The notes beneath the pieces were generated by a model, which was given only the letters and a program-made list of their open reading frames with translations, ran no database searches and had not been told where the DNA came from. From a virus, in the IMG/VR virus record IMGVR_UViG_3300036790_000306, positions 1 through 56,583 of that record: a DNA stretch of 56,583 nt, one strand, 5' to 3'. The position numbers were made by a program, and so were the translations under genes. Position 1 is the stretch's first letter. Every line of letters begins with the position of its first letter. This document shows, one piece after another, positions 12,538-37,133 of this stretch.

Positions 12538-13262
12538 TGCCTAACTGGAAACCTCGCTGGGGCGCGAATTTGCCTGACTACATTCCCCTGGTCTCGGCCG
12601 TGTGCGTCACCGCGGACCGGCGCGAGTTCCTTCGTGCCGCAATTGATTGCTATCTCGCGCAGGACTACCCGCACAAGGAATTGGTCGTCGTCGACGACGG
12701 GAAAGATCGAGTCGGCGACTTATTGCTCGGCATCCCCGGCTGTACGTACTTTGAGGGGCCGACAGACGGCCCGAGAGAAAAGATCGGCGTGAAGCGCAAT
12801 ATTGGCGCCGGCCTAGCCACTGGAAAGATCATCTGCCATTGGGACGATGATGACTGGTCAGCTCCCGGCCGCATGCGCGACCAGGTCGAGCGAATGCTCG
12901 CGTCTGGAAAAGAAGTGAGCGGGTATAACGCGATGATCTTTTGGGATGGCGAGCAGGCTTTCCGCTATCAGGGAATCCAGGATTATTCGCTAGGCTCGGC
13001 TCTATGCTACCGCAAAGAGTTCTGGGAGCAGCACCGCTTCATCGCGGAAGATCATCGGCGCTGGGAAGACAACGTGTTCGTGCAGCAGGCGCGAAACGAC
13101 GATCAGATTATTTGTGTGGACGCCGGCAAGTTGATGGTCGCACGGATTCACGCCGGCAACACCGCTCCCAAGAAACCGCGCGAAAGCCCGCAACAGTGGC
13201 AGCCAGTGGATCGAAGCGAGATCCCAGAGTCGTTCTTCGCTACGGAGGCTTTGTGTCGGTGA
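12534..13262 (+). CDS. Glycosyltransferase, GT2-like (GT-A fold)
   Basis: A 242-residue enzyme from ATG 12534 (ATGA overlap; ATG 12537 also possible). Features: P-L-V-S-A-V-C-V-T-A-D-R-R at the first strand, ELVVVDDG (49-56), K-R-N-I-G near 87, and the metal/nucleotide-sugar motif CHWDDDDWSAP (101-111). It should transfer an activated sugar. It is cytosolic with no membrane segment and opens an eight-gene coupled cassette inside the connector module. Acceptor unknown; virion proteins are the natural candidates. Confidence 0.88.
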   Translation: MMPNWKPRWGANLPDYIPLVSAVCVTADRREFLRAAIDCYLAQDYPHKELVVVDDGKDRVGDLLLGIPGCTYFEGPTDGPREKIGVKRNIGAGLATGKIICHWDDDDWSAPGRMRDQVERMLASGKEVSGYNAMIFWDGEQAFRYQGIQDYSLGSALCYRKEFWEQHRFIAEDHRRWEDNVFVQQARNDDQIICVDAGKLMVARIHAGNTAPKKPRESPQQWQPVDRSEIPESFFATEALCR

Positions 13263-13675
13263 AGATGTTCTACTTCGGGCCGTGGGATGAAGCGGGCCAT
13301 TACCTATTCGACGAACAAGGCTATGGCGTCCGAACGAAAGACCGCGGGGCATTCCCATGGGATGAGTACAGCGGAGAGTCGGGCATAGACGGAGTGTTGC
13401 AGCCGGGATGCTTCCGAAAATTTGACCGCTGGATGCACGGGGATCAACTGGAAGGCCAAGCACTGCTCCATCACAGGTCTGGATGGACGGCGCTCTCATT
13501 CTGGGATCGCAGCGTAGACAAGCGCGGGAACTGCAACAGCACCTATTTCGCGGAAGGCACCTTTACCTTCGACGAGATGGTAGCGATGGCGAAAGAACGA
13601 TTCGCCTATCGCTGGAACAAGATGCCATTTCAAGTTGTAAATGTCACGCCGGCCGCTGTCGCCGCCACCCTATGA
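13259..13675 (+). CDS. Hypothetical protein in glycan cassette
   Basis: A 138-residue protein from GTG 13259 (GTGA overlap). It begins KMFYFGPWDEAGHYLFDEQGYG and is rich in aromatic residues, with HHRSGWTALSFWDRSVD and RGNCNSTYFAEG. This looks like a compact beta-rich domain. Its ATGA overlap with the methyltransferase indicates it works with the cassette. No family recognised. Confidence 0.65.
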   Translation: MKMFYFGPWDEAGHYLFDEQGYGVRTKDRGAFPWDEYSGESGIDGVLQPGCFRKFDRWMHGDQLEGQALLHHRSGWTALSFWDRSVDKRGNCNSTYFAEGTFTFDEMVAMAKERFAYRWNKMPFQVVNVTPAAVAATL

Positions 13676-14127
13676 AGCTCAACCTCGGTTGTTCGGATCG
13701 CCACTTCCCCGGCTACACGAATGTCGATGTCTGCGCGCCGGCGGATGTGCTTGCAGATCTGAATGCGACGTGGCCCTGGGAGAATTCGATTGTCGACGAG
13801 ATCCGCGCTTGGGATCTCATCGAGCACCTGCGCTCGCCAATTAATACGATGAATGAGGCCTGGCGCGTGCTCAAGCCTGGCGGCATCTTCGACATCGAAG
13901 TGCCGACAACGGACGGCCGCGGCTGGGCGCAGGATCCCGGCCACATCTGCTGGCCACCGTGGAATCGAAACAGCTTCTTCTACTACGAACACGACAATCC
14001 GCACCTGACGCGCTTTGCACCGGCGAACGGCGTCCGTTGTGCTTTCCGGATTGTCAAGGAAGACGAAAGGATGCTCGCGGACCGAGTTAGTAAGTTGCGC
14101 ATCATCCTTGAAGCGGTGAAGGCGTGA
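13672..14127 (+). CDS. SAM-dependent methyltransferase, class I
   Basis: A 151-residue protein. Motif I is KLNLGCSDRHFPGYTNVDV at the very N terminus, then D-L-I-E-H-L-R and N-E-A-W-R-V-L-K-P-G-G-I-F as in Methyltransf_11 proteins. It is shorter than the family average (about 200) and probably lacks a cap domain. In this cassette it may methylate the sugar or its precursor. Coupled on both sides by 4-bp overlaps. Confidence 0.85.
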   Translation: MKLNLGCSDRHFPGYTNVDVCAPADVLADLNATWPWENSIVDEIRAWDLIEHLRSPINTMNEAWRVLKPGGIFDIEVPTTDGRGWAQDPGHICWPPWNRNSFFYYEHDNPHLTRFAPANGVRCAFRIVKEDERMLADRVSKLRIILEAVKA

Positions 14128-14288
14128 TCGGCTATCGGAACAGGCCTTCATTCGACATGGCTCTGCTCAAAGGCGCGGTGCTGGAGATCGAGCAGCCACC
14201 TCGAGATATCTGCTGCAAGATCGGTTATTTCGCTGGGGTGATCTATCCAACCCGGCCGTGGCCCGATCCTCCGAGTCTCAAATCATGA
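14124..14288 (+). CDS. Small protein in glycan cassette
   Basis: A 54-residue product from GTG 14124 (GTGA overlap) ending in an ATGA overlap with the next gene. The double overlap is the main evidence that it is real. Residues 12-24 form an acidic helix and DICCKIGYFAG follows with adjacent cysteines. No family recognised. Confidence 0.55.
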   Translation: MIGYRNRPSFDMALLKGAVLEIEQPPRDICCKIGYFAGVIYPTRPWPDPPSLKS

Positions 14289-14941
14289 GCTTCTCCGTCA
14301 TCATCCCATCGCGCAGCGCAGCGAACCTGGTGCCTTGCGTCCAGGCGCTGCGGAATTGTGAGCCAGTGACTCCGATCATCGTGATCGACGACGGAATCGA
14401 CTGGAGCGCAGCCTGGCACCTGAAATCGCAGCTTACGGTCATTCCCGGAGTAAAGCCGTTCGTTTTCGCCCGCAACGTCAACCTCGGCATTCGGGCCTGC
14501 TGGGGCGACGTGATCCTGCTCAACGATGACGCGCTCCTCGAAACTCCCTACGGCTTTCACGAGTTGGAGCAAGCGAGCCGTGCGCATCCGGAATTCGGCG
14601 TGATCTCGGCAGTCACGAATCTAGCCGGCAATCTCGCGCAGAGACCGCAAGATGTCGGGCTGCGACTCGAACAGCGCAGCGTGGCCTTCGTGTGTGTCTA
14701 TATCCCGCGCGGCACACTGAATCGCGTCGGTCTGCTGGATGAGCGCTTCACGGCCTATGGCTGGGAAGACAACGACTACTGCCGCCGCGTACGCGAAGCA
14801 AGTCTCGAGGTCGGCATCTTCGACGACTGTTTTGTCGATCACGCTTCGCTTCATTCGACCTTTCGCGGGCTGCCTCATACGCCGGGCGATATCAGCCTCG
14901 GGCGCGAGATTTACCGGAATAAATGGGGGGATACGGCATGA
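14285..14941 (+). CDS. Glycosyltransferase family 2-like
   Basis: A 218-residue GT-A enzyme. FSVIIPSRSAANL at the start, PIIVIDDG (30-37), FARNVNLGIRAC (61-72), the DxD-like LLNDDALLE (78-86), and a C-terminal GWEDNDYCRR (about 156-165) that is the usual catalytic 'ED' helix of rhamnosyl-type GT2 enzymes. No transmembrane segment. Likely adds a sugar in the same pathway as the other two transferases of the cassette. Confidence 0.88.
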   Translation: MSFSVIIPSRSAANLVPCVQALRNCEPVTPIIVIDDGIDWSAAWHLKSQLTVIPGVKPFVFARNVNLGIRACWGDVILLNDDALLETPYGFHELEQASRAHPEFGVISAVTNLAGNLAQRPQDVGLRLEQRSVAFVCVYIPRGTLNRVGLLDERFTAYGWEDNDYCRRVREASLEVGIFDDCFVDHASLHSTFRGLPHTPGDISLGREIYRNKWGDTA

Positions 14942-15681
14942 TCGCGGTCTACACCGTTATCGTCGCGAACTACGACAACCTGGCAACCCTTCCGGTCCAG
15001 GCGATCGCGCCCAGCGTACGCTATGTGTGTTTCTCCGATCGCCCGCGGCAAGTGAGACCATGGGAAATCCAGCCTTTTCCGCAGCTTCTCGCGAACCCGC
15101 ACCGCATGTCGCGGATCCCGAAGATGCTGCCACATCTTTTGCTTCCCGAGGCAGAAATCTCCGTCTACCTGGACGGCGCCTTCACTCTTTGCGCCCCTCC
15201 AAAGCAGATGGTCGCTGAACTTTTAGGCGATGCCGACGTAGCCCTTTTTCGACACCCTACGAATCACAGCATTCACGACGAGCGGAACTTCTACCAGAAT
15301 CTGCACGGTTACGTGCCGGACGATGTTGAAGCTGAATACCGGAAATATTGCGCTCTCGAGATCCCGATCAGCGGAGAGTTTTGGGCCGGAGGCTTTATCC
15401 TGCGACGCCACAACGCGAAGGTCGAAAAGTTCAACGAGCTGTGGATGCACGCGTTTCTGAGCGGTTCGAACAATGACCAATTTTCTCTCTACTACGCGCT
15501 GAGCACGATGATTCGCGAAGAAGGGCTGAAAGTGCACGGGCTTCCCGGCTATTACAGCGCCCAGGGCCGGCTGGGCTACCACTTCCATGCGAATGCCGGC
15601 GATCCCGGCAATCAGGTGCTCGTCTCCGAGAATTGCAACTGGAAAGAACGTACCGACCGTATCCATCAAATCTGTGAATAG
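14938..15681 (+). CDS. DUF616/TOD1-like glycosyltransferase-type protein
   Basis: A 247-residue protein from ATG 14938 (ATGA overlap). The pattern AVYTVIVANYDNL, then YVCFSDRP, W-E-I-Q-P-F-P, NPHRMSRIPKMLPH, and SVYLDGAF with a DxD-like site matches DUF616-type proteins, which are related to capsule and cell-wall glycosyltransferases. The FRHP-x-N and GEFWAGGFILRRHN segments are also as expected. It is likely a further transferase. Confidence 0.8.
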   Translation: MIAVYTVIVANYDNLATLPVQAIAPSVRYVCFSDRPRQVRPWEIQPFPQLLANPHRMSRIPKMLPHLLLPEAEISVYLDGAFTLCAPPKQMVAELLGDADVALFRHPTNHSIHDERNFYQNLHGYVPDDVEAEYRKYCALEIPISGEFWAGGFILRRHNAKVEKFNELWMHAFLSGSNNDQFSLYYALSTMIREEGLKVHGLPGYYSAQGRLGYHFHANAGDPGNQVLVSENCNWKERTDRIHQICE

Positions 15682-16861
15682 CTTCGACTTTTACGATACG
15701 TTGGTGGCCCGTCGCAGCATCGTCGACTGCCACTACTCGATCGACGACGAACTCAGCAATCTTATCCCCGTGCGCGAAATGATTTCCGAAGTCGCTCCCG
15801 AAGACATGGTGATTTCCGATTTCGGTGATCCGGATACTGTGCGCCGCGGCCTGCGTGAAGTGTGTGGCTTGAACAATCCATGCCACGTGTCGCCGGAAGA
15901 CAAATTCACGGGACGCGCCTGGCAGCTGTACCGTCCACTGCTGCACACCGGAGACAACCCGCACTCCGATCGGGAGACCGCTGCACGGGCTGGGATTAAG
16001 TCGAGGCTCGTGAACCATGCGCAGGTTTCGCCAATCGAGAAACATTTGATCGACTCCGGATTTGAAGCGCTCGGAAAGCTTATACGCGAAGCGAGGCTTT
16101 CGAGCTTCGACTCTTCGAATCGCGATCTCCAGTTGTGCCAGATCCAACTGAATTTTCCGTTTCTCTTTCTGGCGTCGATGCTGCTCGATCGGCTCATGGC
16201 CGCAGGGAAATACACGGATGCGCTCATGTCAAGCCGCGATTGCTGCCTGTGGGGCGACTTGCAAAAGCGCGTCGCCGAACTCGGTGGGCGTTCTTATCGC
16301 ACCCATTATTTCTATACCAGCCGCAAAGCCCGTACCGAACCAAGCGCAGCGTATCTGGAATATGTAAATGGCATTCTCAGCGGCGGAGGCGCTGTGGTCG
16401 TCGATCTGTGCGGGTATGGCCACTCATTGCCGGAACTACTCGATCGAACTACTGAACCGGACGCCCCCGTGTGTCTGGCGGTCCGATATCCGCATCCGAA
16501 GCGCAGTCGCGCGCAATATTTTGTGGCCTTTGGGGACAGCTTGATCGAGCGACTGAATGTGGCCCGGCATCCCCGCATTGTCGACGTCGCCCGGTCCGAG
16601 GGGACATGGGCGCCGTGCTACTCGAACCCTCTCAGCATCGACTGGGTCGGATCTGCACGAATTCAGGCCGCACATGAGGCTTTCCAACACACCCTTGCCT
16701 GCACGAATCGCTACGAGGGCGAGTTGCTCGGTCTACTTTCAGGCGCTAGCGACTCGGCCATCAAAAAGACGATGGGCTACTTGCTATCCAGCATGGAAGA
16801 GCGGCGAGCCCAGATATTGACTGAAGATTTTGTCCACCAGGAGAGCATAGCCGGATGCTGA
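15674..16861 (+). CDS. HAD-superfamily protein, COG5610-like
   Basis: A 395-residue protein. GTG 15674 overlaps the preceding stop by 8 bp and puts the motif NSFDFYDTLVARR at the N terminus, a HAD motif I-like D-x-x-D-T as in COG5610 proteins that accompany glycosyltransferases. A second half carries SSRDCCLWGDLQKR, YFYTSRKA and VVVDLCGYGHSL, where a Rossmann-like strand binds the next substrate. It probably acts on a phosphorylated sugar or as a transferase partner; the chemistry is not fixed by sequence. Confidence 0.7.
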   Translation: MNSFDFYDTLVARRSIVDCHYSIDDELSNLIPVREMISEVAPEDMVISDFGDPDTVRRGLREVCGLNNPCHVSPEDKFTGRAWQLYRPLLHTGDNPHSDRETAARAGIKSRLVNHAQVSPIEKHLIDSGFEALGKLIREARLSSFDSSNRDLQLCQIQLNFPFLFLASMLLDRLMAAGKYTDALMSSRDCCLWGDLQKRVAELGGRSYRTHYFYTSRKARTEPSAAYLEYVNGILSGGGAVVVDLCGYGHSLPELLDRTTEPDAPVCLAVRYPHPKRSRAQYFVAFGDSLIERLNVARHPRIVDVARSEGTWAPCYSNPLSIDWVGSARIQAAHEAFQHTLACTNRYEGELLGLLSGASDSAIKKTMGYLLSSMEERRAQILTEDFVHQESIAGC

Positions 16862-17613
16862 TCACTGGCATGATGCGCGTCAAGAACGAAGCGCGGTGGA
16901 TCGCCGACGTTCTGCGCTCGGCCCTAGTCGTTTGCGATCGCGTTTACGTGCTCGACGATCATTCGACAGATGACACAGGAGAAATCTGCCGCAGTTTCGG
17001 AGAACGACTGCGTGTTTACAGCTCGCCCTTCTCGGGCCTCGATGAAGCTCGCGACAAGAATTTTCTGTTGGATGCGATCCGACTGGCTGGTGAGGCTGAC
17101 TGGATATTGGCGATCGATGGCGACGAGGTGCTCGGCAATCCGGGCGCGGTGCGCGCTTCCGTTGCCAGCGGGTCGTCTGACAGCTATGCACTCCGGGTGC
17201 TTTATCTCTGGGATCGGCCCGACCAGGTGCGAGCCGACGGCGTGTATTCGCGTTTCTGGCGGCCGTCATTGTTTCGCGCGCGCGCCGGCGTTAATTTCCG
17301 CGCGACCGCCAACGGCGGTAACTTTCACTGCGGCAATGTCCCGCAGGAACTCGCGAGATCCTCGCAGCGCTCCGATGCCTTCCTTTTGCACTTCGGCTAC
17401 ATGGCCGCGCGCGATCGGCGGCGCAAATTCGACTGGTACAACCGGAACGATCCGAACAATGTCGCCGAAGATCAGTATGTCCACGTGATCCAGGGAGATC
17501 CGGGAGGTCCGCCGGCGCATGTTCGTCTTCGTCACGCTGGACCGCTCACGCTAGCGCCGCTCAACACGTGGGCGCCGGCACAAGCGAATACGGTTCCGAT
17601 GGGAGTGGCCTAA
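16855..17613 (+). CDS. Glycosyltransferase family 2, WaaE-like
   Basis: A 252-residue protein with ITGMMRVKNEARWIADVLRS at the start, YVLDDHSTDDT (31-41), a D-E-A-R-D-K-N-F segment and the catalytic DWILAIDGDEVL (82-93). This is the pattern of GT2 enzymes that elongate LPS cores and O-antigens. Its 7-bp overlap with the previous gene and abutment to the head-tail adaptor show the cassette is co-transcribed with virion genes. Confidence 0.88.
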   Translation: MLITGMMRVKNEARWIADVLRSALVVCDRVYVLDDHSTDDTGEICRSFGERLRVYSSPFSGLDEARDKNFLLDAIRLAGEADWILAIDGDEVLGNPGAVRASVASGSSDSYALRVLYLWDRPDQVRADGVYSRFWRPSLFRARAGVNFRATANGGNFHCGNVPQELARSSQRSDAFLLHFGYMAARDRRRKFDWYNRNDPNNVAEDQYVHVIQGDPGGPPAHVRLRHAGPLTLAPLNTWAPAQANTVPMGVA

Positions 17614-17997
17614 GTGCCTCTTCGCCGGCTTTCGCGGCGCGGCTCCGGCGCGACGGTTGCGATCGGCGGCATGGACAAGCTGATCACCATCGAGACGCGC
17701 ACCGGCACAAATTCTTACGGGCAGTCGGGCGGACCATGGACTGATTTCGCAACCAACCTCTGGGCGAAGATGGATCACGTTTCCGGCTCAGAGATTGTCA
17801 ATCAGACAGAATATTCCGCCGAAGTCACGGATCTGTTCACCACGCCCTACGTTCCCGGAGTAACTCCGAGGATGCGGATCAAGTTCGTGGACATCGACGG
17901 TAAAACGCGCTATTTCGACATTCTCTTTCCCCGGAATGTGGAGGAGCACGGGATGTTCCTTCTTCTTCTGGCCAAAGAAATCTACTCGAACACCTAA
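17614..17997 (+). CDS. Head-tail adaptor (head closure)
   Basis: A 127-residue protein from GTG 17614. TRTGTNSYGQSGGPWTDF, LWAKMDHVSGSE, then YFDILFPRNVEEHGMFLLLLAKEI fit the small beta-barrel Phage_H_T_join/SPP1 gp16-like closure family (about 100-115 residues; a basic 18-residue N-terminal extension is added here). It would sit between connector and tail terminator. Confidence 0.8.
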   Translation: MPLRRLSRRGSGATVAIGGMDKLITIETRTGTNSYGQSGGPWTDFATNLWAKMDHVSGSEIVNQTEYSAEVTDLFTTPYVPGVTPRMRIKFVDIDGKTRYFDILFPRNVEEHGMFLLLLAKEIYSNT

Positions 17998-17998
17998 G

Positions 17999-20900
17999 AT
18001 GCCACTCCGCACCGATCTCGAGATCGTCCAGCTTCCCCTAACACTGCCAGACGTCGGCGGGCTCACTGGGGCGAACACGGTCGTCACCGATCCGGATTTT
18101 GGGGCGCAGATCGTTCGTCTCACGGACGGATCCTCGGGCAATGGCGCTTTTGATTCGATGCAGACGATCGACGACCCATCGGGGCGCCCGATGTGGAACG
18201 TCGACGACACGCTGCTGATCGTGCGCGACACAGGCTCTAATGGATGGCTCTTTCAATTCAATCCGTCGACGATGCAGGGTACGCAGCTCGGCAGCGCGGC
18301 GCCCTACAAGGTAAACGGGCACTATTGTTTTTCGCGAGTGCATGCCGGCGTTCTCTATGTGATGAACGGCAGCGCGCTGACGGCGATGACTTTCGCCATG
18401 GTCGGCGGCGTATGGACCTATCAGAACACGACGACGGTCTGCGACTTCGCGGCGATTCTCCCCGGAGGCTTCACAGTTAACTGGATCAGCGGGCTGACGA
18501 TTTCGGAAGAGGACACGGTATTCGCCGTTGCCTTTTCCCAAGGGAACCAGAACACAGGATTTTACGCGTGCCTATACAAGCCGGGCGCCGGCCTCCGGAT
18601 GATCAACACTCAAACGCTGGCCGTCACAGGCGATTGGGGAATGATCGGCACGGCCACGCTTCAGAATTCTTCGGCGACAGGTTTTTATTTGCACGGTGTG
18701 AACCAGCCGCCGAATCCGAATTACCTCACCCTCTCGCCAGTCGCCGGCGGCGGAGGCCATGGAAGTTTCGTCTGGCAGTCGGACACTCTGACGCTGACGC
18801 AGACGGGCCTCAGTGGTCATCATGGTCTCGGTTTTCTTAGCCTGTACACAGGGAATCCTGGCGGAGGTCAATACGACCAGGCGTTCTACGCGACACCCGC
18901 GGCTCACACCACGGTCATCCCCAAGCAAGCCGGACCACCAGGACTGCCGGCCAATCAAAGCCCGGCGCAAAGCTACACCGGTGATCAGCACAGCGCATTC
19001 TCTCCGATCGATATCGAAGACGAATCCCTGCTCTGGATTACGAACGGTGAGCCGAGTATTTTTCCTTTCACCAGTTGCTGGATGGGCGAGGTCCGCGGCC
19101 TCGATGTCACTGGCGCAATCTCCGGCTCCATGGGAACGGTCTACCGACTTTGCCACACCTTCAACAGTGGCCAGTCAACCGAATACATCGTCACGAACGC
19201 GCAGCTTGGCGTCTCGCGCACCGGAAACTTCATCGCCTTTACGAGCGACTGGGGCGGCGCCGGCACAATCGGCCCTCTCGGATCGACGAGTGGCGCTGCA
19301 TCGGGAACACTCGGCGTCGACGCGCGCGGCGACGTCTTCATTGCGAGAGTTCCGCAAGGATCGCTCGAAGTCTCCAGTCTCAATCTCGCTGACGGCGTTG
19401 TCGCTGATTCATACATGCAGACGCTCGATGCGGATGGCGGCGTTGCACCCTATAGCTGGGCGCTCACCGCGGGCACTCTTCCGGCAGGCCTGAGCCTTTC
19501 ATCTTCCGGATTGATCTCCGGCACTCCGACTTTGATCGGAAGCTCGAGCTTCACGGTCACGGTTACGGATTCCGAAGGAACGCCGGCGACGGCGATCGCG
19601 ACACTTAGCATCACGATCCAGCCGGCGCTCTCGGTGAGCACGTCGGTTCTTCCCGCCGGCACGACGGGCTCGGGGTACAGCCAGGTGCTCGCGGCCGCGG
19701 GTGGAGTTTCACCCTACACATGGTCTATCGCTTCGGGATCTCTGCCGCCAGGCCTTACGCTGGGCCCGGATGGGACGATTTCAGGAACACCGTCGCAGAC
19801 GGGGGCTTTCAGCTTCACCGTCGAAGTCGAGGATTCCGAGCAACCTTCGCCGGACACTGCGACCGGATCGGTCGCGATCACAATCGTGGCTCCGCCGCCG
19901 GCGCCCACAATTTTCGATTCGAACCTGGCTATCCTCGCATGGCTTCAAGCGAGCACCGCCTTGGCAGTTCTGGTGGGCACGAACATCTTCTCGCCAGTTT
20001 TACCGGAAGGCTTTTCGGCGATGGCGAGTGAAGCTCCGGATCCATCGCAACGAGCGGTCGTGGTACGCAGGCGCGGCGGCAGATCGAATCCGGAAGTTCC
20101 GGCCGTGCGCGATCCGAGCTTCGCCATCGAATGCTGGGCCATGGAATCGCCGGATGCCAGCCAGGTCTATGGAGTGATTCGCAACTTGATGCACGGGTCC
20201 ACCAGCATCAATCTGGGCTCGGCCGGTTTCATCATTCTTTCGCTCGAGGAAGTGCCAGAGCAGGACATCATCGATCCGGAAACACATTGGGCCATCTGCT
20301 TCGGCTACTACCACGTCAAGATGCGGGCGCCGGACCCAAGCGCCGTTCCCTATGCGCCGCAGTATTACTCGGGAGCTGGCGCACCCGTCACGCTGCACAA
20401 CGACAGCGATCTTTATTACGACACATCCACCGGGAATCTTTATGAACAGGTTTCCAGGGCTTGGCAACTCGTGGGCAACATTCCCCAGGGGACGGGCGGC
20501 GGAGGCAGCATCGTGCGATACGACAATCAGGATATTGGCGGCCTCACCCCGACTGGTAATCCCAACGTCTGGCAGTTGAGCGTGGCCTTCACTGCCAACG
20601 CGATGGTATTCCGCAATCAGGGCCTGCTGGCTCCCACGCTCGACTATTCAACCGCGGGCAACCTGATCACCTATGTGGTCACGCCAGCCAGCGACGATGT
20701 TCTCGCGGTCGTCACTGTTGTTTCTGGAAGCGGGGGAGGATCTGACATGCCGAGCATTAAATACCATCGCGTCGCAACCAGCGGCCTGAATACCGCGGTC
20801 ATCAAGGCATCTGCCGGCCTGATTACCGGCGGCACGATCACAAACGATACCGAGTACGAAATCTTTGTGAAGATCTATGACAGCGCGACCGCGCCGAATG

Positions 20901-21085
20901 TTGGCGTCGATGTCCCCGCGCAGACGATTGGCGTCCAGTCCGGCGTGTCGCTTCCGATCGACATCCCCGAAGGCGGACTCACCTACTCAAACGGCATTGC
21001 GATCGCAATCACCAAGGGAATGGCCGATGAGGATGCAACTCCAGTCGTGGCCGAAGATTGCGTAGTGGATATTTTCTACCAGTAA
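17999..21085 (+). CDS. Multidomain tail protein with tail-terminator domain
   Basis: A 1028-residue protein from ATG 17999. Domains in order: a beta-propeller-like region (about 1-455) of the bacterial exported type; two putative-Ig (He_PIG-like) repeats, about 457-541 and 543-631, each with LPxGLxL...GxISGTP; a DUF3168-like tail terminator (about 638-777: ILAWLQASTALAVLVGTNIF, FAIECWAME, SLEEVPEQDIIDPE); a small G-N-L-Y-E-Q module; a beta domain after a Gly/Ser linker; and a C-terminal beta-sandwich (about 917-1028) shared with the products at 21985 and 23192. Tail terminators are normally about 140 residues alone, so this fusion is unusual. No signal peptide. Confidence 0.75.
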   Translation: MPLRTDLEIVQLPLTLPDVGGLTGANTVVTDPDFGAQIVRLTDGSSGNGAFDSMQTIDDPSGRPMWNVDDTLLIVRDTGSNGWLFQFNPSTMQGTQLGSAAPYKVNGHYCFSRVHAGVLYVMNGSALTAMTFAMVGGVWTYQNTTTVCDFAAILPGGFTVNWISGLTISEEDTVFAVAFSQGNQNTGFYACLYKPGAGLRMINTQTLAVTGDWGMIGTATLQNSSATGFYLHGVNQPPNPNYLTLSPVAGGGGHGSFVWQSDTLTLTQTGLSGHHGLGFLSLYTGNPGGGQYDQAFYATPAAHTTVIPKQAGPPGLPANQSPAQSYTGDQHSAFSPIDIEDESLLWITNGEPSIFPFTSCWMGEVRGLDVTGAISGSMGTVYRLCHTFNSGQSTEYIVTNAQLGVSRTGNFIAFTSDWGGAGTIGPLGSTSGAASGTLGVDARGDVFIARVPQGSLEVSSLNLADGVVADSYMQTLDADGGVAPYSWALTAGTLPAGLSLSSSGLISGTPTLIGSSSFTVTVTDSEGTPATAIATLSITIQPALSVSTSVLPAGTTGSGYSQVLAAAGGVSPYTWSIASGSLPPGLTLGPDGTISGTPSQTGAFSFTVEVEDSEQPSPDTATGSVAITIVAPPPAPTIFDSNLAILAWLQASTALAVLVGTNIFSPVLPEGFSAMASEAPDPSQRAVVVRRRGGRSNPEVPAVRDPSFAIECWAMESPDASQVYGVIRNLMHGSTSINLGSAGFIILSLEEVPEQDIIDPETHWAICFGYYHVKMRAPDPSAVPYAPQYYSGAGAPVTLHNDSDLYYDTSTGNLYEQVSRAWQLVGNIPQGTGGGGSIVRYDNQDIGGLTPTGNPNVWQLSVAFTANAMVFRNQGLLAPTLDYSTAGNLITYVVTPASDDVLAVVTVVSGSGGGSDMPSIKYHRVATSGLNTAVIKASAGLITGGTITNDTEYEIFVKIYDSATAPNVGVDVPAQTIGVQSGVSLPIDIPEGGLTYSNGIAIAITKGMADEDATPVVAEDCVVDIFYQ

Positions 21086-21089
21086 GAAT

Positions 21090-21593
21090 ATGAGCCGAAA
21101 ACGAATATTCGCCCTTGCCGGAATCATACTGGGCTCGTTCCTGCTTATGGCTTTCGGGCGAAACCTGCTCGACTTAACATCGCAGGTCAAGAACGTTCTC
21201 GGGCCGGCTAACGGCGGGACGGGGCTCACCTCAATAAGTTCTTTCTGTGTACCCGGTGGTTTTCAACCTCTGACCGACGGCACGACCGTCGACTGGCCCG
21301 TGAACGGCCAAATGTGCGGCAATGCTTCGCTTCTTCTCACTGCTCACGGCGGAAGTCGAACACTAATTGTCAGCGGATTGGTGGATGGAGGTTCTTACGT
21401 TCTCACAATCCAGCAAGACGGAACTGGCGGTGAGGGAATCGCTCTCGGGACCGGGTGCACCTGGAAGGTTTCCAACGGGGGAGCCGGAACGATTGCGCCG
21501 AGTACCGGGCCGAATGCCATCGACGTCATGGCCTGGACTTACAAAGCGAACGGTTCAACTTGTCTAGTCGATTTCGCTACCAACTTCAACTAG
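21090..21593 (+). CDS. Exported or anchored beta-rich protein
   Basis: A 167-residue protein 4 bp after the previous stop. Residues 5-23 (RIFALAGIILGSFLLMAFG) form a signal peptide or anchor after a basic MSRKR. The mature part starts with LGPANGGTGLTSI, the NGGTG pattern common in phage tail-fibre and baseplate proteins, followed by a Gly/Thr-rich beta domain. First of six consecutive exported-type genes. Confidence 0.75.
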   Translation: MSRKRIFALAGIILGSFLLMAFGRNLLDLTSQVKNVLGPANGGTGLTSISSFCVPGGFQPLTDGTTVDWPVNGQMCGNASLLLTAHGGSRTLIVSGLVDGGSYVLTIQQDGTGGEGIALGTGCTWKVSNGGAGTIAPSTGPNAIDVMAWTYKANGSTCLVDFATNFN

Positions 21594-21598
21594 GACGT

Positions 21599-21931
21599 GT
21601 GCGCAGCTTTCTTTATCGCGGCATTCTGCTGGCTTGCCTGGCCACGCATGGCCTCAGCCAGCGGCAGGTGTTCTTCGGCCACAACCAGCATCATTCTCAC
21701 GTCGGGCACTACGTCACGCTCTCATGGTCGCAGTCCGGATATATCACCGGGAACAATGTTTACCGCGGGACGCAAGATGGTGGACCTTACATCCAGATTT
21801 TCTCCTCCGGGTTCCCAATCACCGCCTATGTCGACAACGGATGCCTCGGGACATGTTTCTACGTGGTAACTGCCGTGAACCCCAACGGCGAATCCGCATA
21901 TTCGGACCAGGCAACAGCTGTTGTGCCGTGA
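21599..21931 (+). CDS. Exported fibronectin-III-like protein
   Basis: A 110-residue protein from GTG 21599, chosen because it starts 5 bp after the previous stop and gives a signal peptide (MRSFLYRGILLACLATHGLSQ). The remainder matches one FN3-type fold: VTLSWSQSG, YRGTQDGGPY, ITAYVDNG, CFYVVTAVNPNGESAYS. A Cys pair (GCLGTC) may form a disulfide after export. A tiny secreted adhesion-type module. Confidence 0.7.
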   Translation: MRSFLYRGILLACLATHGLSQRQVFFGHNQHHSHVGHYVTLSWSQSGYITGNNVYRGTQDGGPYIQIFSSGFPITAYVDNGCLGTCFYVVTAVNPNGESAYSDQATAVVP

Positions 21932-21984
21932 CTCATTTTTTGATCCACATCGCCAAAACAACCAAGGAGAAGGAAAACGAACCT

Positions 21985-22785
21985 ATGAAACATTTCTTGA
22001 GAATTTTCGCACTCGGCACTCAAACAGCGCTATCCCTGCTGCTCTGCGCGAGTTTCTGTCTCGCTCAGCAAGGCATCAACATCCAAAACGTCGGTGGCTC
22101 TGCGACGCAGACCGGAAACGGTACCAACACCGGAGCACTCCGCGTAGCGATCGCTTCCGACAACACGGCTTTCTCCGTCAACGCGGCCTCGACTCTGAGT
22201 GCCGAAACCACCAAGGTTATCGGAACCGTCAGAAACGTCGGCAACGTTGGCGGGGTCTTCGATACGACGCCTGGCGCGACCGCTCCCGCGAATGCGCTGT
22301 TCGTTGGCGGCGTTTACAACACTTCTGCGCCAACTCCGTCGACCGGGCAGATGGAGCCGTTCCAGCTCGACTCGGCCGCCAATCTGAAAGTTAGCTGCAT
22401 CACGGGATGCAGCTCTGGGGGGACCTCGACGCTAGTGCCTGGCACGTCTGGCGGCGTCACTCCGTTTCATGCGGTCGCCGCAGCCTCGACGAATGCGACG
22501 TCTCTCAAGGCAAGCGCCGGGCAACTCTACGGAGCGTCGATTTACAACAACGCGACGTACCCGGTTTATTGGAAGTTTTACAACAAGGCGTCCTCGCCGA
22601 CTGTTGGAACCGACACCGTGGTCTTCGAAGTCCCGGTGCAGTCTGGGACAGAGCGCGAGATCCATACTGAGCAAGGGATCGTGTTCGGGACTGGCATCGC
22701 GTATGCACTCACGAAGGGAATTACCGACGCGGATACTACGGCGGTCTTGCTGAGCGATGCGGAGATCAGCGGATTTTACAAATGA
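21985..22785 (+). CDS. Exported protein with shared C-terminal beta-sandwich
   Basis: A 266-residue protein from ATG 21985, with AAGGAGAAGG upstream. A clear Sec signal ends LCASFCLA-QQ (cleavage about 28). The middle has GALRVAIASDNTAFSV, a strand pattern typical of phage tail proteins. The C terminus (about 150-266: LKASAGQLYG, FYNKASSPTVGTD, VQSG, ALTKGITDADTT) is a paralogue of the last domain of the 17999 product. So a virion-type domain is attached to an export signal. Confidence 0.8.
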   Translation: MKHFLRIFALGTQTALSLLLCASFCLAQQGINIQNVGGSATQTGNGTNTGALRVAIASDNTAFSVNAASTLSAETTKVIGTVRNVGNVGGVFDTTPGATAPANALFVGGVYNTSAPTPSTGQMEPFQLDSAANLKVSCITGCSSGGTSTLVPGTSGGVTPFHAVAAASTNATSLKASAGQLYGASIYNNATYPVYWKFYNKASSPTVGTDTVVFEVPVQSGTEREIHTEQGIVFGTGIAYALTKGITDADTTAVLLSDAEISGFYK

Positions 22786-23195
22786 ATCGCACTGTCCTCG
22801 TCATCGCATGTTCGGTTGTCTTGGGCGGACTGATGGCGGCGCAGAAGGTGGAAACGGTTCCACCGTCTGTTCCGCCAGCCGCCACAAGTCCCGTTGCGTC
22901 TTTCCTCGAGCCGCCAGCTCCATTTCCTGGACTCATCGTCAGCGATCCAATCTATCCTTTCCCGCCTGAAAAGAAGGCCAAGTTCCGGGACGCCCAGGTC
23001 GCGTTTCTCAATCTCGAATTGGAGATTAGGAAGCATGAGCTGGAGATCATGGAGTGCAAGCTGAAGCAAAAAGACGCGGTGCAGCGGATGCAGTCCATCG
23101 CGTACGACTTTGCGCTCGACAAAAAGATCGACATGGGCAAGTACGAGATGGATGGCGATAAGGTCGAGTGGCGACCTGGAAAGAAAAGCCAATGA
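22782..23195 (+). CDS. Exported Pro-rich coiled-coil protein
   Basis: A 137-residue protein coupled by ATGA. A signal peptide (MNRTVLVIACSVVLGGLMAA) is followed by a Pro/Ser/Val-rich linker (25-60) and a charged coiled coil (about 68-115). No catalytic motif. It could be a periplasmic spacer or oligomerisation unit for the neighbouring exported proteins; that is inference. Confidence 0.7.
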   Translation: MNRTVLVIACSVVLGGLMAAQKVETVPPSVPPAATSPVASFLEPPAPFPGLIVSDPIYPFPPEKKAKFRDAQVAFLNLELEIRKHELEIMECKLKQKDAVQRMQSIAYDFALDKKIDMGKYEMDGDKVEWRPGKKSQ

Positions 23196-23632
23196 AGCGG
23201 CGACTCGGAATAGTTTTCATTCTTGCCGCCTGCGTGAGCGCGTGGGCGCAGCAGTCGGTCACGCCGGGGACGACGCCGAACACGGCGAACACAGCCCAGC
23301 GATGCACGCTCGTTTCAGCGGCCTCAAACAACGCGACCAACTGCAAAGGGTCAGCCGGGAATGTCTACGGCTTTCGCTTCGTCAACACAACCGGCACGAT
23401 TTACTACCTTCGGATGTACAACACCTCCTCCTCGCCGACGTGCAGCTCGGCCACGGGGTTCATCGAGACGATTCCGATTCCGGCATCCACGGGTGGAGCG
23501 GGCCTGGTCGCGATCGAGCCGATGGGCGAAGGCTATTCAACGGGCATCAGTTTTTGCCTGACCGGCGGATCGAGTTCCACGGATAACACCAACGCCGCGA
23601 CCGGCGTCTTCGGAACAATTCTCTACCAGTGA
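23192..23632 (+). CDS. Exported beta-sandwich protein, paralogue
   Basis: A 146-residue protein from ATG 23192 (ATGA overlap). The signal MKRRLGIVFILAACVSAWA-QQ is followed directly by the shared beta-sandwich: NNATNCKGSAGNVYG, RMYNTSSSPTC, ISFCLTGG, ending ILYQ like the 17999 product ends FYQ. It is the minimal version of the domain, with added cysteines that could form a disulfide in the periplasm. Confidence 0.75.
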   Translation: MKRRLGIVFILAACVSAWAQQSVTPGTTPNTANTAQRCTLVSAASNNATNCKGSAGNVYGFRFVNTTGTIYYLRMYNTSSSPTCSSATGFIETIPIPASTGGAGLVAIEPMGEGYSTGISFCLTGGSSSTDNTNAATGVFGTILYQ

Positions 23633-25938
23633 AATTTCGTCACATATTTTTGTTGGCTTTCGTGCTGGCTACGCTGCCGGCTTTTGGGCAGCTCGTGCTC
23701 GTCGGAGGATGTTCGGCGACGGCGGCGACGAGCTGCACGCCGGCGACGGTCGGGGGCCACAGTTTTGCCTCTGGGCAACTCATCTATACATTTGCATTCC
23801 GCACGGCGACGACAGCACCGACTCTTTCCTCGAGTCCGACTTTTACCGCGCTCGACACCGCTAGCGCGAGCGCCAGTTCGTTTCGATCGGGATGCGCGGT
23901 TTCAACCAGCGGCTCGCCATCCTCCGGGACGTGGGCGAATGCCACGCGCGTCGTCACCCTGATTTATAGCGGCTCTCCGGCCACAACGACCGCAAATTGC
24001 GCGTCAAGCGGTGTCGGTGGGAAAACGACGGCCGGCACATCAGGGACGACGAGCACCATCACGTACACGGGCATCACCTTGACGCATGGCGATGGGAGTT
24101 CATGGGTCATCGGCGCGGCCGGGGGCAGCGCGGCTGTTTGCACTCCAGCCACGATTCTTCATTCAGAAGAAAGCGCCACCGACCTCGTCGGCAACGATAC
24201 GAATGGCGGCGTGACCAGCTTCTCGACGCTCACCTGCACAGGCAGCGCGGGAAACTGGAAGTCAGATACGGTCGAACTTCTTTCTACGACTCTGGCCACG
24301 CCGACTTACACGCCCGACGCGGGCGGCTTTACCACGGTCGGCGGGGTTTACGTGACGATAGGGCTCGCCGGCGGAGCCACAGGCTGCTACACCACGGACA
24401 ATTCGACGCCGACTGCATCGGCTGGCTCCTGCACGCATGGATCGCCTTACTCGGCGCCGGTGCTGATCTCGACATCTGGCACGGTTCTTCAGGCGATCGC
24501 GACCGAGACCGGTTTTGCCAATAGTGCGGTAAAGAATTCGACTTTCACCCTGACGACGCCGTTTTCGATGCTTTCTCTGATGGGGACGGGGGTCGGCGGA
24601 TTTGCGGGAGGTCTCTCACTCCCGGTCGGATGGCTCGCCGTAGAAGATAATGGCGACGGCGATGATTGCAGCGGAACTACCACGAGTTGCAGTCCTACCA
24701 AGTTTGCGCCTGTTCAATCCGGCGATTTGGTCATTATCTGCGCTGGGTTGCCAGCGAACGACACGATCAGCACAATTACTGGCACCACCGGCGGGTCGTG
24801 GCAAACCATGTCCGGCGGACACGGATTTTCTGCAACCGCTGGAGGCTTCGACTGCCAATTCAATGCGGGGTTAACCGCAGGCACATTTACGCCGACCGTG
24901 ACGCTTACGACGCAAGACCTCGGGTATGTGCTGAAGGTAGAGATTCAGCCGCCAGCAGGCTACACGGCATCATTTGATGTTGCAACAAATGGCAGCGCTT
25001 CAAGCTGCACAACGTGCACCGGCCCTAGCATCTCGTTGTCTGCTACTGATGCTGTTGTTTATGTCTGGGCAGAAGCTAACAGCCCTGTCTTTCCGTTCAC
25101 ATTTTCCTCGCCGTTTATAACAGGGCTGTCAAATGAAGGCATCGCCACAAATGTAAGTGGAACGGTGCAACCGACTGCCGGCCAGTCTCCGGCTGGCGAC
25201 GCTGCCTTTGTAGCCATGGCGTTTAAAAGTTCTGCTGGTACGTTCAGTGTTCCAGCTCCTGTATTTACTTGGGTGGCTTTAACTGCCGTCCCAGGTGGCG
25301 AATCCTGTGGGCCAGCTTGCCCGGCGATTACTCTAAACGGTACTCCCGCGGCAGGCGATCTATTGTTCGTTCAAGCTGCCGATCTCCAAAATGGGGGTTA
25401 CATCTCTTCGATTAACGATGGTCATAGCGGCGCCTTTACGATTCCCAGCCCAGGCAGCACCTGCGCGGTTCAGGTTGTTAACAATGCAAGCGCCTGGTGG
25501 AATAATAGCTGCGCTTGGGAAGTTCTTCCTGCCGGCGTAACCCAGATCACTCCAACAATGGCCGCAAGCGGGCAGACCGGCTTCTTGATTTATCAGGTGC
25601 ATCGCAACGATGGCCATACGTGGGCACTCGATGCACAGAATTCGACTACCATCAGTTCTCCAAGCACGACATCCGTTGCGTGCCCATCGCTGTCGGTATC
25701 AGGAACAAACGAGGTTATCTTTCAGCAAGGCTCGAACCAAGGACAAATGTGGGGAGGAAGTCCGAATTACTACATTCAGCCCTATATAAACGATTCCGGT
25801 TGGAGCAACGCCGTGTTACAGGGAAATGCGCAAGGAGCCGCGGGCTTCAACATGACGCAGTATTATCAGTGCGTTTGGATGTCGGTGCAACAGGGTGCGG
25901 CCAATCCCGTGGCTATGTACGCGGTGGCCTTCAAATGA
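23629..25938 (+). CDS. Large exported repeat adhesin-like protein
   Basis: A 769-residue protein from GTG 23629 (GTGA overlap). A signal peptide ends PAFG-QL near 21. The mature chain is Thr/Ser/Gly-rich beta repeats: a first unit (about 25-200), a CHB_HEX_C-like module (about 215-305: TPDAGGFTTVGGVYVTI, CYTTDNSTPTASAG), and two further large units (about 330-540, 545-769), each closing with a V-A-x-x-F-K type strand. Paired cysteines occur throughout. It resembles a surface adhesin or carbohydrate-binding protein rather than an enzyme. Confidence 0.75.
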   Translation: MKFRHIFLLAFVLATLPAFGQLVLVGGCSATAATSCTPATVGGHSFASGQLIYTFAFRTATTAPTLSSSPTFTALDTASASASSFRSGCAVSTSGSPSSGTWANATRVVTLIYSGSPATTTANCASSGVGGKTTAGTSGTTSTITYTGITLTHGDGSSWVIGAAGGSAAVCTPATILHSEESATDLVGNDTNGGVTSFSTLTCTGSAGNWKSDTVELLSTTLATPTYTPDAGGFTTVGGVYVTIGLAGGATGCYTTDNSTPTASAGSCTHGSPYSAPVLISTSGTVLQAIATETGFANSAVKNSTFTLTTPFSMLSLMGTGVGGFAGGLSLPVGWLAVEDNGDGDDCSGTTTSCSPTKFAPVQSGDLVIICAGLPANDTISTITGTTGGSWQTMSGGHGFSATAGGFDCQFNAGLTAGTFTPTVTLTTQDLGYVLKVEIQPPAGYTASFDVATNGSASSCTTCTGPSISLSATDAVVYVWAEANSPVFPFTFSSPFITGLSNEGIATNVSGTVQPTAGQSPAGDAAFVAMAFKSSAGTFSVPAPVFTWVALTAVPGGESCGPACPAITLNGTPAAGDLLFVQAADLQNGGYISSINDGHSGAFTIPSPGSTCAVQVVNNASAWWNNSCAWEVLPAGVTQITPTMAASGQTGFLIYQVHRNDGHTWALDAQNSTTISSPSTTSVACPSLSVSGTNEVIFQQGSNQGQMWGGSPNYYIQPYINDSGWSNAVLQGNAQGAAGFNMTQYYQCVWMSVQQGAANPVAMYAVAFK

Positions 25939-25941
25939 GAA

Positions 25942-26610
25942 TCAGTCGCGATGTTTCGCAAACACATCGCCGTAATAGATATGCTTGGGTACGACTGAGA
26001 GCAATGGCACCATCTCTTCGGCCGCGACCCACCGGTCCAATTCAAGCTTCGTCTTTTCCCCGAGAGCAAAATTAAATTCATACCCTGGGAGAAGGTTGAT
26101 GCAGCAAACAGCCACACTCAACGCGAGCGGCGCGAATTCGAAACTCGCAACTTCTGGCCGAAATGACATTCCCCGAAGCACTTCAGCATCAAAGCCTTCG
26201 GTGTCAATTTTTACGTATCTGGGAAGACCGTAGCGTTTTGCCATCACATCGAGAGTTGAGATCGGGACCTGAATTGACTCGGAGCACTGCGCACTTCTTG
26301 CCCACGCTGGCGACAACGTGCTCCGATCGCCTTTCCCCGTTCCGACGTAGAGTTCTGCCGTTCCTTCCTGTTGCCCCATCGCACAGGACTCAATTTGGAC
26401 GTTCTTCCCGGTGAAGCGATTTTCTAGAATTTCGACATTTTTCGGGTCTGGCTCGATCGCGACGACCCTCGCGCCAGCGCCCAATAAGGCCTCCGTGTAG
26501 TTTCCGACGTTGGCTCCCACGTCAAAGACTAAATCGTCCGGTCTTACGAATTGAGAGTAAAACGAGCGGCGACTTGGATCGAACAGGGCATGATAGACAG
26601 CGCGAAGCAT
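25942..26610 (-). CDS. FkbM-family methyltransferase (antisense moron)
   Basis: A 222-residue enzyme on the minus strand. LVFDVGANVGNYTEALLGAGARVVAIEPDP (28-57 in the chain, SAM-binding strand-loop) and YVKIDTEGFDAEVLRGM are hallmark FkbM motifs. Family members O-methylate sugars and small molecules. It is convergent with the exported block (3-bp gap), is more AT-rich than its neighbours, and has its own promoter at 26620. It is likely a moron acting on a glycan. Confidence 0.9.
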   Translation of the reverse strand: MLRAVYHALFDPSRRSFYSQFVRPDDLVFDVGANVGNYTEALLGAGARVVAIEPDPKNVEILENRFTGKNVQIESCAMGQQEGTAELYVGTGKGDRSTLSPAWARSAQCSESIQVPISTLDVMAKRYGLPRYVKIDTEGFDAEVLRGMSFRPEVASFEFAPLALSVAVCCINLLPGYEFNFALGEKTKLELDRWVAAEEMVPLLSVVPKHIYYGDVFAKHRD

Positions 26611-26869: not shown

Positions 26870-27331
26870 ATGCCTCTCGTACTTGAACCCATCGTCGACA
26901 CCACTGGCGACGATGTCGGCTTGAAAGCTTCGATCGCGCTCAATCTTCGCGAGCAGATTCATGCTGCCGGCGTGCTCGCCACACAGGAAGTCTTCGAGCA
27001 GCAAATTCTGCCGGCGGCCAAAGCGGGCTCCCCCGTCGGCGGCCATCTCGATCCGCATCCTGGCAAGAATCGGGATTCGATCGAGGTCAGCTTCCACGAC
27101 AACCCCGAAACCGGATGGATTTCGGCCTGGCTCTCCACGCATTCGGGGTATGGCTGGCTGATCGAGCACGGCACCAGTCATAACCGGCGACTGACGCAGC
27201 TCGCAAAGCGGCGGCGCCGTCACCCAGTCGTGAACGATCGGACGCGTGCGCAGCCATACATTTACCCGGCCATGACGCAGTTCGTCGGGACCATCGCTGA
27301 ACGCCAGCGAGAGATTTTGGAAAGCACCTGA
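26870..27331 (+). CDS. HK97 gp10-like head-tail/minor tail protein
   Basis: A 153-residue protein. The motif S-G-Y-G-W-L-I-E-H-G-T-S (about 95-106) and the terminal R-A-Q-P-Y-I-Y-P-A-M are characteristic of the HK97-gp10_like family, which participates in head-tail joining or tail completion. It is located just before the tail tube gene as expected. Confidence 0.85.
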   Translation: MPLVLEPIVDTTGDDVGLKASIALNLREQIHAAGVLATQEVFEQQILPAAKAGSPVGGHLDPHPGKNRDSIEVSFHDNPETGWISAWLSTHSGYGWLIEHGTSHNRRLTQLAKRRRRHPVVNDRTRAQPYIYPAMTQFVGTIAERQREILEST

Positions 27332-27379: not shown

Positions 27380-27967
27380 ATGGCTGAACCAACCGCAACT
27401 CAAATCATCGCAGGGCCTGCAACTTTGTACGTGGCTCCGCTCGGAACCGCGCTACCCGCAACAAGTTCGCCCGCCACCTGGCCTCCCACGTGGCCCGCGG
27501 GATGGCAACAGGCCGGCTACACCGAAAAGGGTGTCGATCTGATCTATACGCCAACCGTCAAGGGATTCACTCCGGACGAAGAAGCCACCGAGGTTTATGA
27601 CATCCTCGAAAAGCAGAAGGCCGAAATCTCAACCGTCCTGTGGGAAGCCACGATCGAGAACTACAACCGAGTTGTCTCGGCCGGTGTATTCACCGACGAC
27701 GGAGCGGTTCGCAAACTGGCGGTTGGCGGCTTGGCGTTGCGCTATTCGATGATCGGCTTCCAGGGGCCGGCGCCGGTCTCGGATTCAATGTCGAGCCCTG
27801 CGTCGACGCCAACGGGTCGCGTGATCATCATGCAAAAGGCGATCGTCACCAGCGCGATTTCGATCAACATGAGCCGTCAAGAAATCCAGAAGTTCAACGT
27901 CAAATGGGATGCCCGCAAGATCTCCGGCCAGGATCTCTACGATCTGTTCGAGTTCTATCACCTCTAG
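27380..27967 (+). CDS. Major tail (tube) protein
   Basis: A 195-residue protein with its own SD (AGGAGAACAAG). The order G-P-A-T-L-Y-V-A-P, W-Q-Q-A-G-Y-T-E-K-G-V-D-L, the loop with EATEVYDILEKQKAEISTVLWEATIENYN, and GRVIIMQKAIVTSAISINMSRQ matches phage tail-tube proteins of siphoviruses. It is followed by a strong hairpin, consistent with high expression. Confidence 0.85.
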   Translation: MAEPTATQIIAGPATLYVAPLGTALPATSSPATWPPTWPAGWQQAGYTEKGVDLIYTPTVKGFTPDEEATEVYDILEKQKAEISTVLWEATIENYNRVVSAGVFTDDGAVRKLAVGGLALRYSMIGFQGPAPVSDSMSSPASTPTGRVIIMQKAIVTSAISINMSRQEIQKFNVKWDARKISGQDLYDLFEFYHL

Positions 27968-32112: not shown

Positions 32113-32661
32113 TCACGGGCTTTTAACCGATTCGTCGATTAAAACCCGACACCCTCCATCGTCGATATAGTAGGTGTTTCCAACTTGGCTATCAGGATGC
32201 TTCCCGAACAACACCTCCTCCGCCATGACGCGACAGGCTGCCTTCGCATCTGCCCATTGCTTCATGATTGTGTTCCCGTGAGCGTTGTTTTCCGCCATTC
32301 CTGAGAGATATACGTGGCTAGTTAGCTTCACATTTTTTAAGAGACGCCACGTTGCTACATCCCCGACAAGACTAGAGTCGCTCAGCTCTATACCAACATC
32401 GCGCTCTAATGGTTGAAAGTGTTCATCCCAGGAATCGAGGATCGAGTTGCAAGTCAGTTGCTCATCTTTGCTCATAAATCCATGGCATTGCTTCATTGAC
32501 TCATCGATCAAAGCTAAGTACAGCACGCCGATCTTCCGCATATATTTCGAGACAGGCCACTTTGGTAATTCAGGAGTTTTCGCCTTTTTCGAGCGGGGAT
32601 CCGTTTGTGCTATCGCGGAAAGCGTTAGCAGAATTACGAGAACGGCTCTTGATCTTTTCAT
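32113..32661 (-). CDS. Exported protein (antisense moron)
   Basis: A 182-residue protein on the minus strand. The ATG at 32661 is chosen over an upstream one because it starts a signal peptide (MKRSRAVLVILLTLSAIA-QT) and sits 8 nt from a good promoter. The mature part is helical with four to five cysteines (KQCHGFMSKDEQLTC, AACRVM, GGCRVLI), possibly disulfide-bonded. The region has lower GC than flanking tail genes, suggesting recent acquisition. Candidate periplasmic superinfection-exclusion factor; unproven. Confidence 0.7.
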   Translation of the reverse strand: MKRSRAVLVILLTLSAIAQTDPRSKKAKTPELPKWPVSKYMRKIGVLYLALIDESMKQCHGFMSKDEQLTCNSILDSWDEHFQPLERDVGIELSDSSLVGDVATWRLLKNVKLTSHVYLSGMAENNAHGNTIMKQWADAKAACRVMAEEVLFGKHPDSQVGNTYYIDDGGCRVLIDESVKSP

Positions 32662-36971: not shown

Positions 36972-37133
36972 ATGGCACGCGTGATCCTCATCTCGGTAGA
37001 GGTGGAAGTTGCGGCAGAGGTTGAAAATCTGGTGACTCTTCGGACCGAGTATCTGCTGCGCATCGCCGTGCGAACCGAAGACCGAATAATTCTGCGCGAG
37101 AGCTTCGCGATCGTTTCCGAGCAAGACTACTAA
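36972..37133 (+). CDS. Small tail-module protein
   Basis: A 53-residue protein from ATG 36972, its stop overlapping the next ATG (TAATG). Regular beta-strand sequence (VILISVEVEVAAEVENLV, YLLRIAVRTEDRIILRESF). Probably a small beta-hairpin protein bridging hub and the next baseplate protein. No family recognised. Confidence 0.65.
   Translation: MARVILISVEVEVAAEVENLVTLRTEYLLRIAVRTEDRIILRESFAIVSEQDY

Follow-up and report, generated by a model that had tools for sequence, protein, structure and literature searches.

A late siphovirus block of six adjacent signal-bearing genes for fibre-type proteins that are very likely exported and may join virions after lysis

In the textbook view, a tailed phage builds its entire particle in the cytoplasm, a compartment in which disulphides usually do not form. 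Exported phage proteins with roles at the envelope or in superinfection are known in general; exported morons, such as Lom and Bor of lambda, are single accessory genes with outer-membrane or lipoprotein products, and the coat proteins of filamentous phages are virion proteins that pass through the general secretory (Sec) or YidC route. To our knowledge, late blocks encoding exported fibre-type proteins have not been described in tailed phages. Here we describe a candidate block of this kind, six consecutive genes (g1 to g6) in the siphovirus record IMGVR_UViG_3300036790_000306 of IMG/VR, whose full stretch of 56,583 bases (GC content 0.578) is referred to as the window. In agreement with a preceding reading of the sequence alone, which knew of no described system with this layout, no comparable cassette turned up in open-access papers, and the novelty is provisional. 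The nearest precedent is a group of five genes of unknown function in Porphyromonas gingivalis phages ('Nixviridae'), described in passages of PMC10367356, whose signals follow the Q-rule, with glutamine at position +1.

Like the window block, these P. gingivalis phage genes belong to tailed phages and carry signal peptidase I (SPase-I) signals with glutamine at +1, but the passages concerned report neither a late fibre-type cassette nor a pairing with a tail terminator, the two systems being compared by description only. Ordinary neck and tail fibres of phages share with the block their fibre-type repeats and modules, and in three loci (L155, L157 and L158) the same slot at the tail terminator; they lack a signal, whereas in the window every subunit gene has one and the cysteines are paired. 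Lom and Bor, also phage-encoded proteins with Sec signals, are single genes, whereas the cassettes considered here comprise three to seven adjacent late genes for soluble, fibre-like products. Filamentous-phage coat proteins assemble in the membrane without lysis, and neither they nor their virions are related to those of the window. Finally, the Ena appendages of Bacillus, disulphide-linked pili of jelly-roll-like subunits, provide the closest fold in PDB to the beta-sandwich of the block, although the match is weak, no sequence relation is shown and the likeness of the phage protein rests on a predicted fold.

Export signals were assessed with a fixed SPase-I rule (positive n-region, 9-residue hydrophobic core and -3/-1 motif). 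Exactly g1 to g6 passed among the 63 window genes tested, the background being 40 of 1846 open start codons of the window (2.2%), and the sequence-only reading, which had singled out six consecutive genes with export signals, is borne out in this respect. The clear cleavage sites that it had seen in five of them, mostly before glutamine, correspond to g2 to g6, all five with glutamine at +1 (Table 1), and the N-terminus of g1, which it had regarded as a possible anchor, is indeed ambiguous between cleavage and anchoring. The mature N-terminal QQ and the C-TGC pair are invariant across ten g3 homologues. Reading frames overlap by 4 nucleotides (nt) at g3/g4, g4/g5 and g5/g6, and g1 and g2 are 5 nt apart; since g2 and g3 are separated by 50 nt they are uncoupled, and the proposed coupling of all six genes stands for the other junctions only. 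After refinement of the start sites, signal- or transmembrane-like N-termini are also seen in three genes that lie elsewhere in the window, namely those at 12534 (a doubtful Ala/Asp cleavage; slashes mark cleavage), at 41079 (lysis region) and at 32113-32661 on the minus strand. The last of these encodes an exported-type protein (MKRSRAVLVILLTLSAIA/QTD) on the opposite strand between the tape measure and the next tail gene, and an analogous opposite-strand exported gene occurs in G001 (L015, 5982-6491). It could be argued that the hydrophobic N-termini do not function as signals and that the products stay in the cytoplasm as ordinary components of the virion, as the sandwich relatives of cultured phages, which lack a convincing signal, might suggest. 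We regard this as highly improbable in view of the clustering of six adjacent genes with glutamine at +1 in five, the even-cysteine signature over 33 sequence families, the recurrence in other phages and the Tat-like (twin-arginine translocation) signals of some relatives. To judge from these sequence features, export of the block proteins is very likely.

The search for similar blocks in other phage genomes, which the earlier reading had proposed, revealed comparable cassettes of three to seven adjacent signal-bearing genes on about 20 further viral contigs. Two alignment-based scans of such contigs with the sandwich domain gave 51 and 80 loci among the matches listed. Clusters of signal genes lie beside the sandwich both in kin of the window by tail terminator or tail tube (L016, L018, L019, L021, L024, L067, L068, L071 and L161) and in other phage types (L020, L022, L023, L058-L060, L062, L063, L073, L094, L123, L126 and L139); the remaining sandwich loci are mostly without such a cluster. 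In the window kin the gene order is mostly kept, consisting of a tail terminator bearing a signal-less sandwich (N1), an exported sandwich of clade X1, an exported coiled coil, a third exported beta-rich protein and a variable last gene. In G003, a close relative whose head protein is 78% identical to that of the window, the slot holds five exported genes, all with glutamine at +1, for a sandwich, a coiled coil, two further beta-rich proteins and an apiosidase-like glycosidase. In L004, three signal genes are accompanied by a sandwich gene truncated by the contig end, at a different location adjoining the head genes. As a single-protein query against viral contigs g4 gave no match, its homologues having come from the neighbourhood. 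In another phage type (L033, 7389-15961, record 2831495660), an exported sandwich and large signal-bearing proteins lie near tail genes, with one weak GDSL match.

Cysteines tend to be paired in proteins whose folding takes place outside the cytoplasm. The counts cover 17 loci that each contain three or more adjacent signal genes, loci and genes having been chosen without regard to cysteines; there, an even cysteine number was found in 56 of 61 cysteine-containing mature cassette proteins, as against 59 of 123 other genes of the same loci. Among mature cassette proteins with at most 8 cysteines the number was even in 48 of 51 (binomial p 2e-11, the homologues not being independent), and by sequence family the cassettes gave 29 even-majority and 4 odd families, compared with 41 even and 54 odd for the other genes. 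Exported sandwich domains contain 0, 1, 2 or 4 cysteines in 3, 1, 17 and 13 cases, respectively (2 or 4 in 30 of 34), whereas signal-less ones contain 0, 1, 2 or 3 in 50, 34, 5 and 1 cases (0 or 1 in 84 of 90), and the pairs occupy several different positions in the fold. As read from these counts, the cassette proteins show adaptation to an oxidising compartment, in which the cysteines would form disulphides. Tat-like signals occur in some podovirus-type cassettes (L023 at 3274, L060 at 9194, L063 at 2269 and L123 at 10430). Cassettes of this type also encode very small exported proteins of about 43-47 mature residues with exactly two cysteines (L063 301-495, L123 6886-7077, L139 3671-3859 and L060 7515-7724).

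The shared beta-sandwich that the sequence-only reading had noticed is found in g3 and g5 and, without a signal, at the C-terminus of the tail-terminator fusion protein. It belongs to no Pfam or PHROG family and has no PDB match by sequence; its AlphaFold2 model comprises eight strands (pLDDT, the predicted local distance difference test score, 82), and in the full-length g3 model the N-terminal half falls below pLDDT 50. The predicted fold weakly resembles three oligomerising folds, those of Ena endospore-appendage subunits, of nucleoplasmin cores and of a phage cement trimer (7dou). Ena (7a02, 9i0y, 9t3p) is the best PDB match, a weak and middling one (Foldseek E 3.5e-3, TM-score 0.5; VIA Z 8.5 but root-mean-square deviation 6.2), with which nucleoplasmin and 7dou score nearly level, and none of 72 sandwich members gave a Pfam match to the Ena/DUF3992 family. 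A quick tree of 122 domains, with many forks unresolved, contains two main exported clades, X1 (with g3) and X2 (with g5), and places the signal-less clade N1 as sister to X1.

The tail terminators of the window and of eight kin carry N1 as a fusion; elsewhere N1 is free-standing, forming a separate gene beside the cassette in L071 and L024. An exported sandwich gene lies nearby in all 15 N1 loci of the tree, compared with none of the 72 loci with other signal-less sandwiches. Within the tail-tube lineage, N1-bearing terminators are followed by exported genes, while terminators without N1 have either nothing in the slot (L154, whose terminator is 51% identical to that of the window, and L162-L164) or an ordinary signal-less fibre, which is separate in L157 and L158 and fused to the terminator in L155. 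This association, like the signals, the export, the paired cysteines and the recurrence, is well supported. Because relatives whose terminator lacks N1 carry ordinary fibres or nothing, the position looks like a fibre slot in which the exported cassette occurs jointly with N1. We propose the N1 domain of the tail terminator as a virion-borne acceptor. The tail terminator of the window also has an N-terminal extension of about 640 amino acids (aa; 17999-19900), including two He_PIG immunoglobulin-like (Ig) domains, that is missing from the G003 terminator.

Whether the exported proteins would remain with the infected cell bears on a reading in which they stay in or on its envelope, blocking superinfection or changing adhesion in the manner of exported morons. 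Such roles are known for exported phage proteins in general, and passages of PMC10367356 suggest that the Q-rule genes of P. gingivalis phages alter the outer membrane. The mature parts of the present proteins, however, contain no transmembrane segment, convincing lipobox or other retention signal, outer-membrane barrels not having been looked for: transmembrane-like segments were found in 0 of 80 cassette proteins and lipobox-like sites in 4. One of these four is g5, whose candidacy as a lipoprotein (LAAC) was rejected, the lipobox not being kept in its homologues. The block is also embedded in the series of head and tail genes, not in an accessory region, and its slot is equivalent to the fibre slot of relatives; we consider envelope modification unlikely.

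The fibre character of the block, which had been described as exported, beta-rich and adhesin-like within the late operon, is supported by its modules. Fibre-type repeats (IASDNTA, MANSxPVxIASxQSA, GTFWQxTQPV and GGTG) are shared between exported phage proteins and others without a signal, and the fibre-type modules of the block are encoded within the neck/tail module; the NGGTG pattern is present in g1, and the CHB_HEX_C-like domain of g6 is confirmed by PF13287 above cut-off and by PF13290 (1.3e-9) in the homologue L094, whereas an FN3-like domain was not recovered, g2 having no Pfam match. The idea that a g6 domain is a copy of the tail protein at 37133-39412 is unsupported (hhalign probability 0.6%, single-sequence target). 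A conserved C-terminal '(T/S)LGVG'-like tail occurs on g6-like proteins whether exported or not (L018, L021, L024, L058, L059, L023, L022, L032, L048 and L055); it was rejected as a sorting signal, being carried by the signal-less relatives L032, L048 and L055. Enzymes accompany the fibre modules in some cassettes: the last gene of the G003 cassette encodes the exported apiosidase-like glycosidase (PF13204 1.1e-41, PF12904), L024 a GH16-like exported product that contains the motif ELDIAE (PF00722 E=0.002), and L060 a weak arabinofuranosidase match. These enzymes, together with the absence of anchors in the mature parts, agree with the main rival explanation, that free adhesins and glycosidases are released at lysis and, off virions, loosen or bind the extracellular matrix that surrounds the lysing cell and those next to it. 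Most members, though, are fibre-type modules without an enzyme signature, a single enzyme function would hardly call for six proteins exported together, and a helper model would work without the strict pairing with a domain that a virion protein carries; we regard such soluble helpers as a doubtful, if serious, alternative.

The explanation that we favour, to which we assign a probability of about 0.5, is that the cassette encodes exported, disulphide-bonded neck or collar fibres that dock on virions after lysis. The fibre or decoration proteins would be made late, directed by cleavable type-I signals through Sec to the host periplasm, and folded there with disulphide bonds. Because they carry no signal to go beyond the periplasm, they would wait there until lysis brings them together with progeny virions. 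Docking on the neck would most likely proceed through the beta-sandwich family, with virion-borne N1 and g3 and g5 as partners, while a stalk, adhesins or enzymes would come from g4 and the variable genes (g1, g2 and g6 in the window, with glycosidases in relatives). What we infer comprises the disulphides themselves, the attachment to virions, its site at the neck and the adhesive or enzymatic role. Among the three roles suggested by the sequence-only reading, attachment to virions after lysis is the most supported, by the fibre-type modules, N1 on the tail terminator, the ordinary fibres in the slot of relatives and the lack of membrane anchors, whereas envelope decoration and superinfection exclusion gained no specific support, no anchor or outer-membrane export signal having been found. 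A more elaborate scheme of two-compartment assembly, in which head and tail form in the cytoplasm while Ena-like, disulphide-linked sandwich subunits join into outer fibres in the periplasm, to be capped or anchored at lysis by N1 on the tail terminator, appears improbable.

Several observations weigh against the docking of exported fibres. Recognisable N1 is missing from the cassettes of L058, L059, L060, L062, L123, L126 and L139, and the adjacency of N1 and X1 could reflect tandem duplication, since they are sister clades. Both the N1 and the cysteine associations are partly shared ancestry; because the export label is clustered on the sandwich tree, leaving only two well-supported independent export/cysteine pairs, a test of independent contrasts has no power. 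The glycosidases of G003 and L024 might work as free, soluble enzymes. Moreover, among cultured phages none with an exported sandwich came to light, the relatives in Caulobacter phages KSC, S2B and Cr30, Octadecabacter phage DB2 and Synechococcus phages S-SRP01 and DSL-LC07 lacking a convincing signal; the S-SRP01 paper, as far as a term search of it goes, reports no virion proteomics.

As regards the host, no relative of the exported sandwich or of the tail tube appeared in the species-representative genomes scanned for prophages and hosts. The habit of glutamine at +1 has been described as exclusive to Bacteroidetes (PMC10653852). In the Granulicella tundricola plasmid pACIX901 (Acidobacteriota; L145, L146 and L148-L150), however, glutamine follows the cleavage motif in 30 of 45 proteins, a sample selected for extracytoplasmic type and a hydrophobic N-terminal core, and Acidobacteriota thus appear to follow the Q-rule despite that view. 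Because of these sites and the GC content of 58%, an acidobacterial soil host fits.

The left half of the window is a siphovirus late region (Table 1). The block had been placed between tail-terminator and tail-tube genes, which holds, with the FkbM methyltransferase and a Neck1-like gene before the tube, so that the slot proper runs from the tail terminator to the Neck1-like gene. The methyltransferase is missing from the corresponding slot of G003 and is probably a separate insertion. Glycosyltransferases and a methyltransferase cluster between adaptor and head closure (12534-17613), as also in G003, L067 and L154, and may glycosylate the virion or the host.

Table 1. Features of the window, with the six-gene block first; cysteines are counted in the mature part, and slashes mark cleavage sites
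Feature	Position (strand)	Size	Signal	Cysteines	Match or remark
g1	21090..21593 (+), ATG	167 aa	signal or anchor, LLMAFG/R	4	NGGTG fibre motif
g2	21599..21934 (+), GTG	111 codons	THGLS/QRQ	2	
g3	21985..22785 (+)	266 aa	FCLA/QQ	2	fibre-type N-terminal part (IASDNTA motif), C-TGC pair; X1 exported sandwich
g4	22782..23195 (+)	137 aa	GLMAA/QK	1	small helical/coiled-coil-like protein; kept beside X1 in relatives
g5	23192..23632 (+)	146 aa	VSAWA/QQ	4	X2 exported sandwich
g6	23629..25938 (+), GTG	769 aa	PAFG/QL	20	several beta-rich domains and Fn3_assoc/CHB_HEX_C-like domain
Terminase	3626				
Portal	5874				
Protease	8032				
Major head protein	9572				
Adaptor	11773				
Head closure	17614				
Tail-terminator fusion	17936..21085 (+); better start 17999		none		N-terminal part of about 460 aa, two He_PIG Ig domains (PF05345 2.4e-23), tail-terminator domain (phrog_123 4.8e-5), C-terminal N1 sandwich
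N1 sandwich	about 20750-21082		none		match to g5 1.7e-4, to g3 1.6e-18; N1 hidden Markov model E=4.5e-40
FkbM methyltransferase	25942..26610 (-)				PF05050 3.1e-15; directly after the block
Neck1/tail-completion-like	26870..27331 (+)				phrog_5 3.3e-6; right edge of slot
Major tail tube protein	27380..27967 (+)				PF25681 1.8e-9
Tape measure, probable	28754				from length and position

If attachment to virions fails, the block would be a variant of exported accessory proteins; even then, the recurrence of late blocks for exported adhesins and glycosidases would mean that these soil phages secrete a coordinated protein set at lysis. The even-cysteine signature offers a simple way of testing whole genomes for phage proteins that are exported, and the pairing of N1 with exported sandwiches names concrete candidate binding partners. 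If late fibre-like proteins are indeed exported by Sec, or perhaps Tat, and then join virions, phages would have a second assembly compartment, and part of the virion would be missed by anyone expecting structural proteins without signals.

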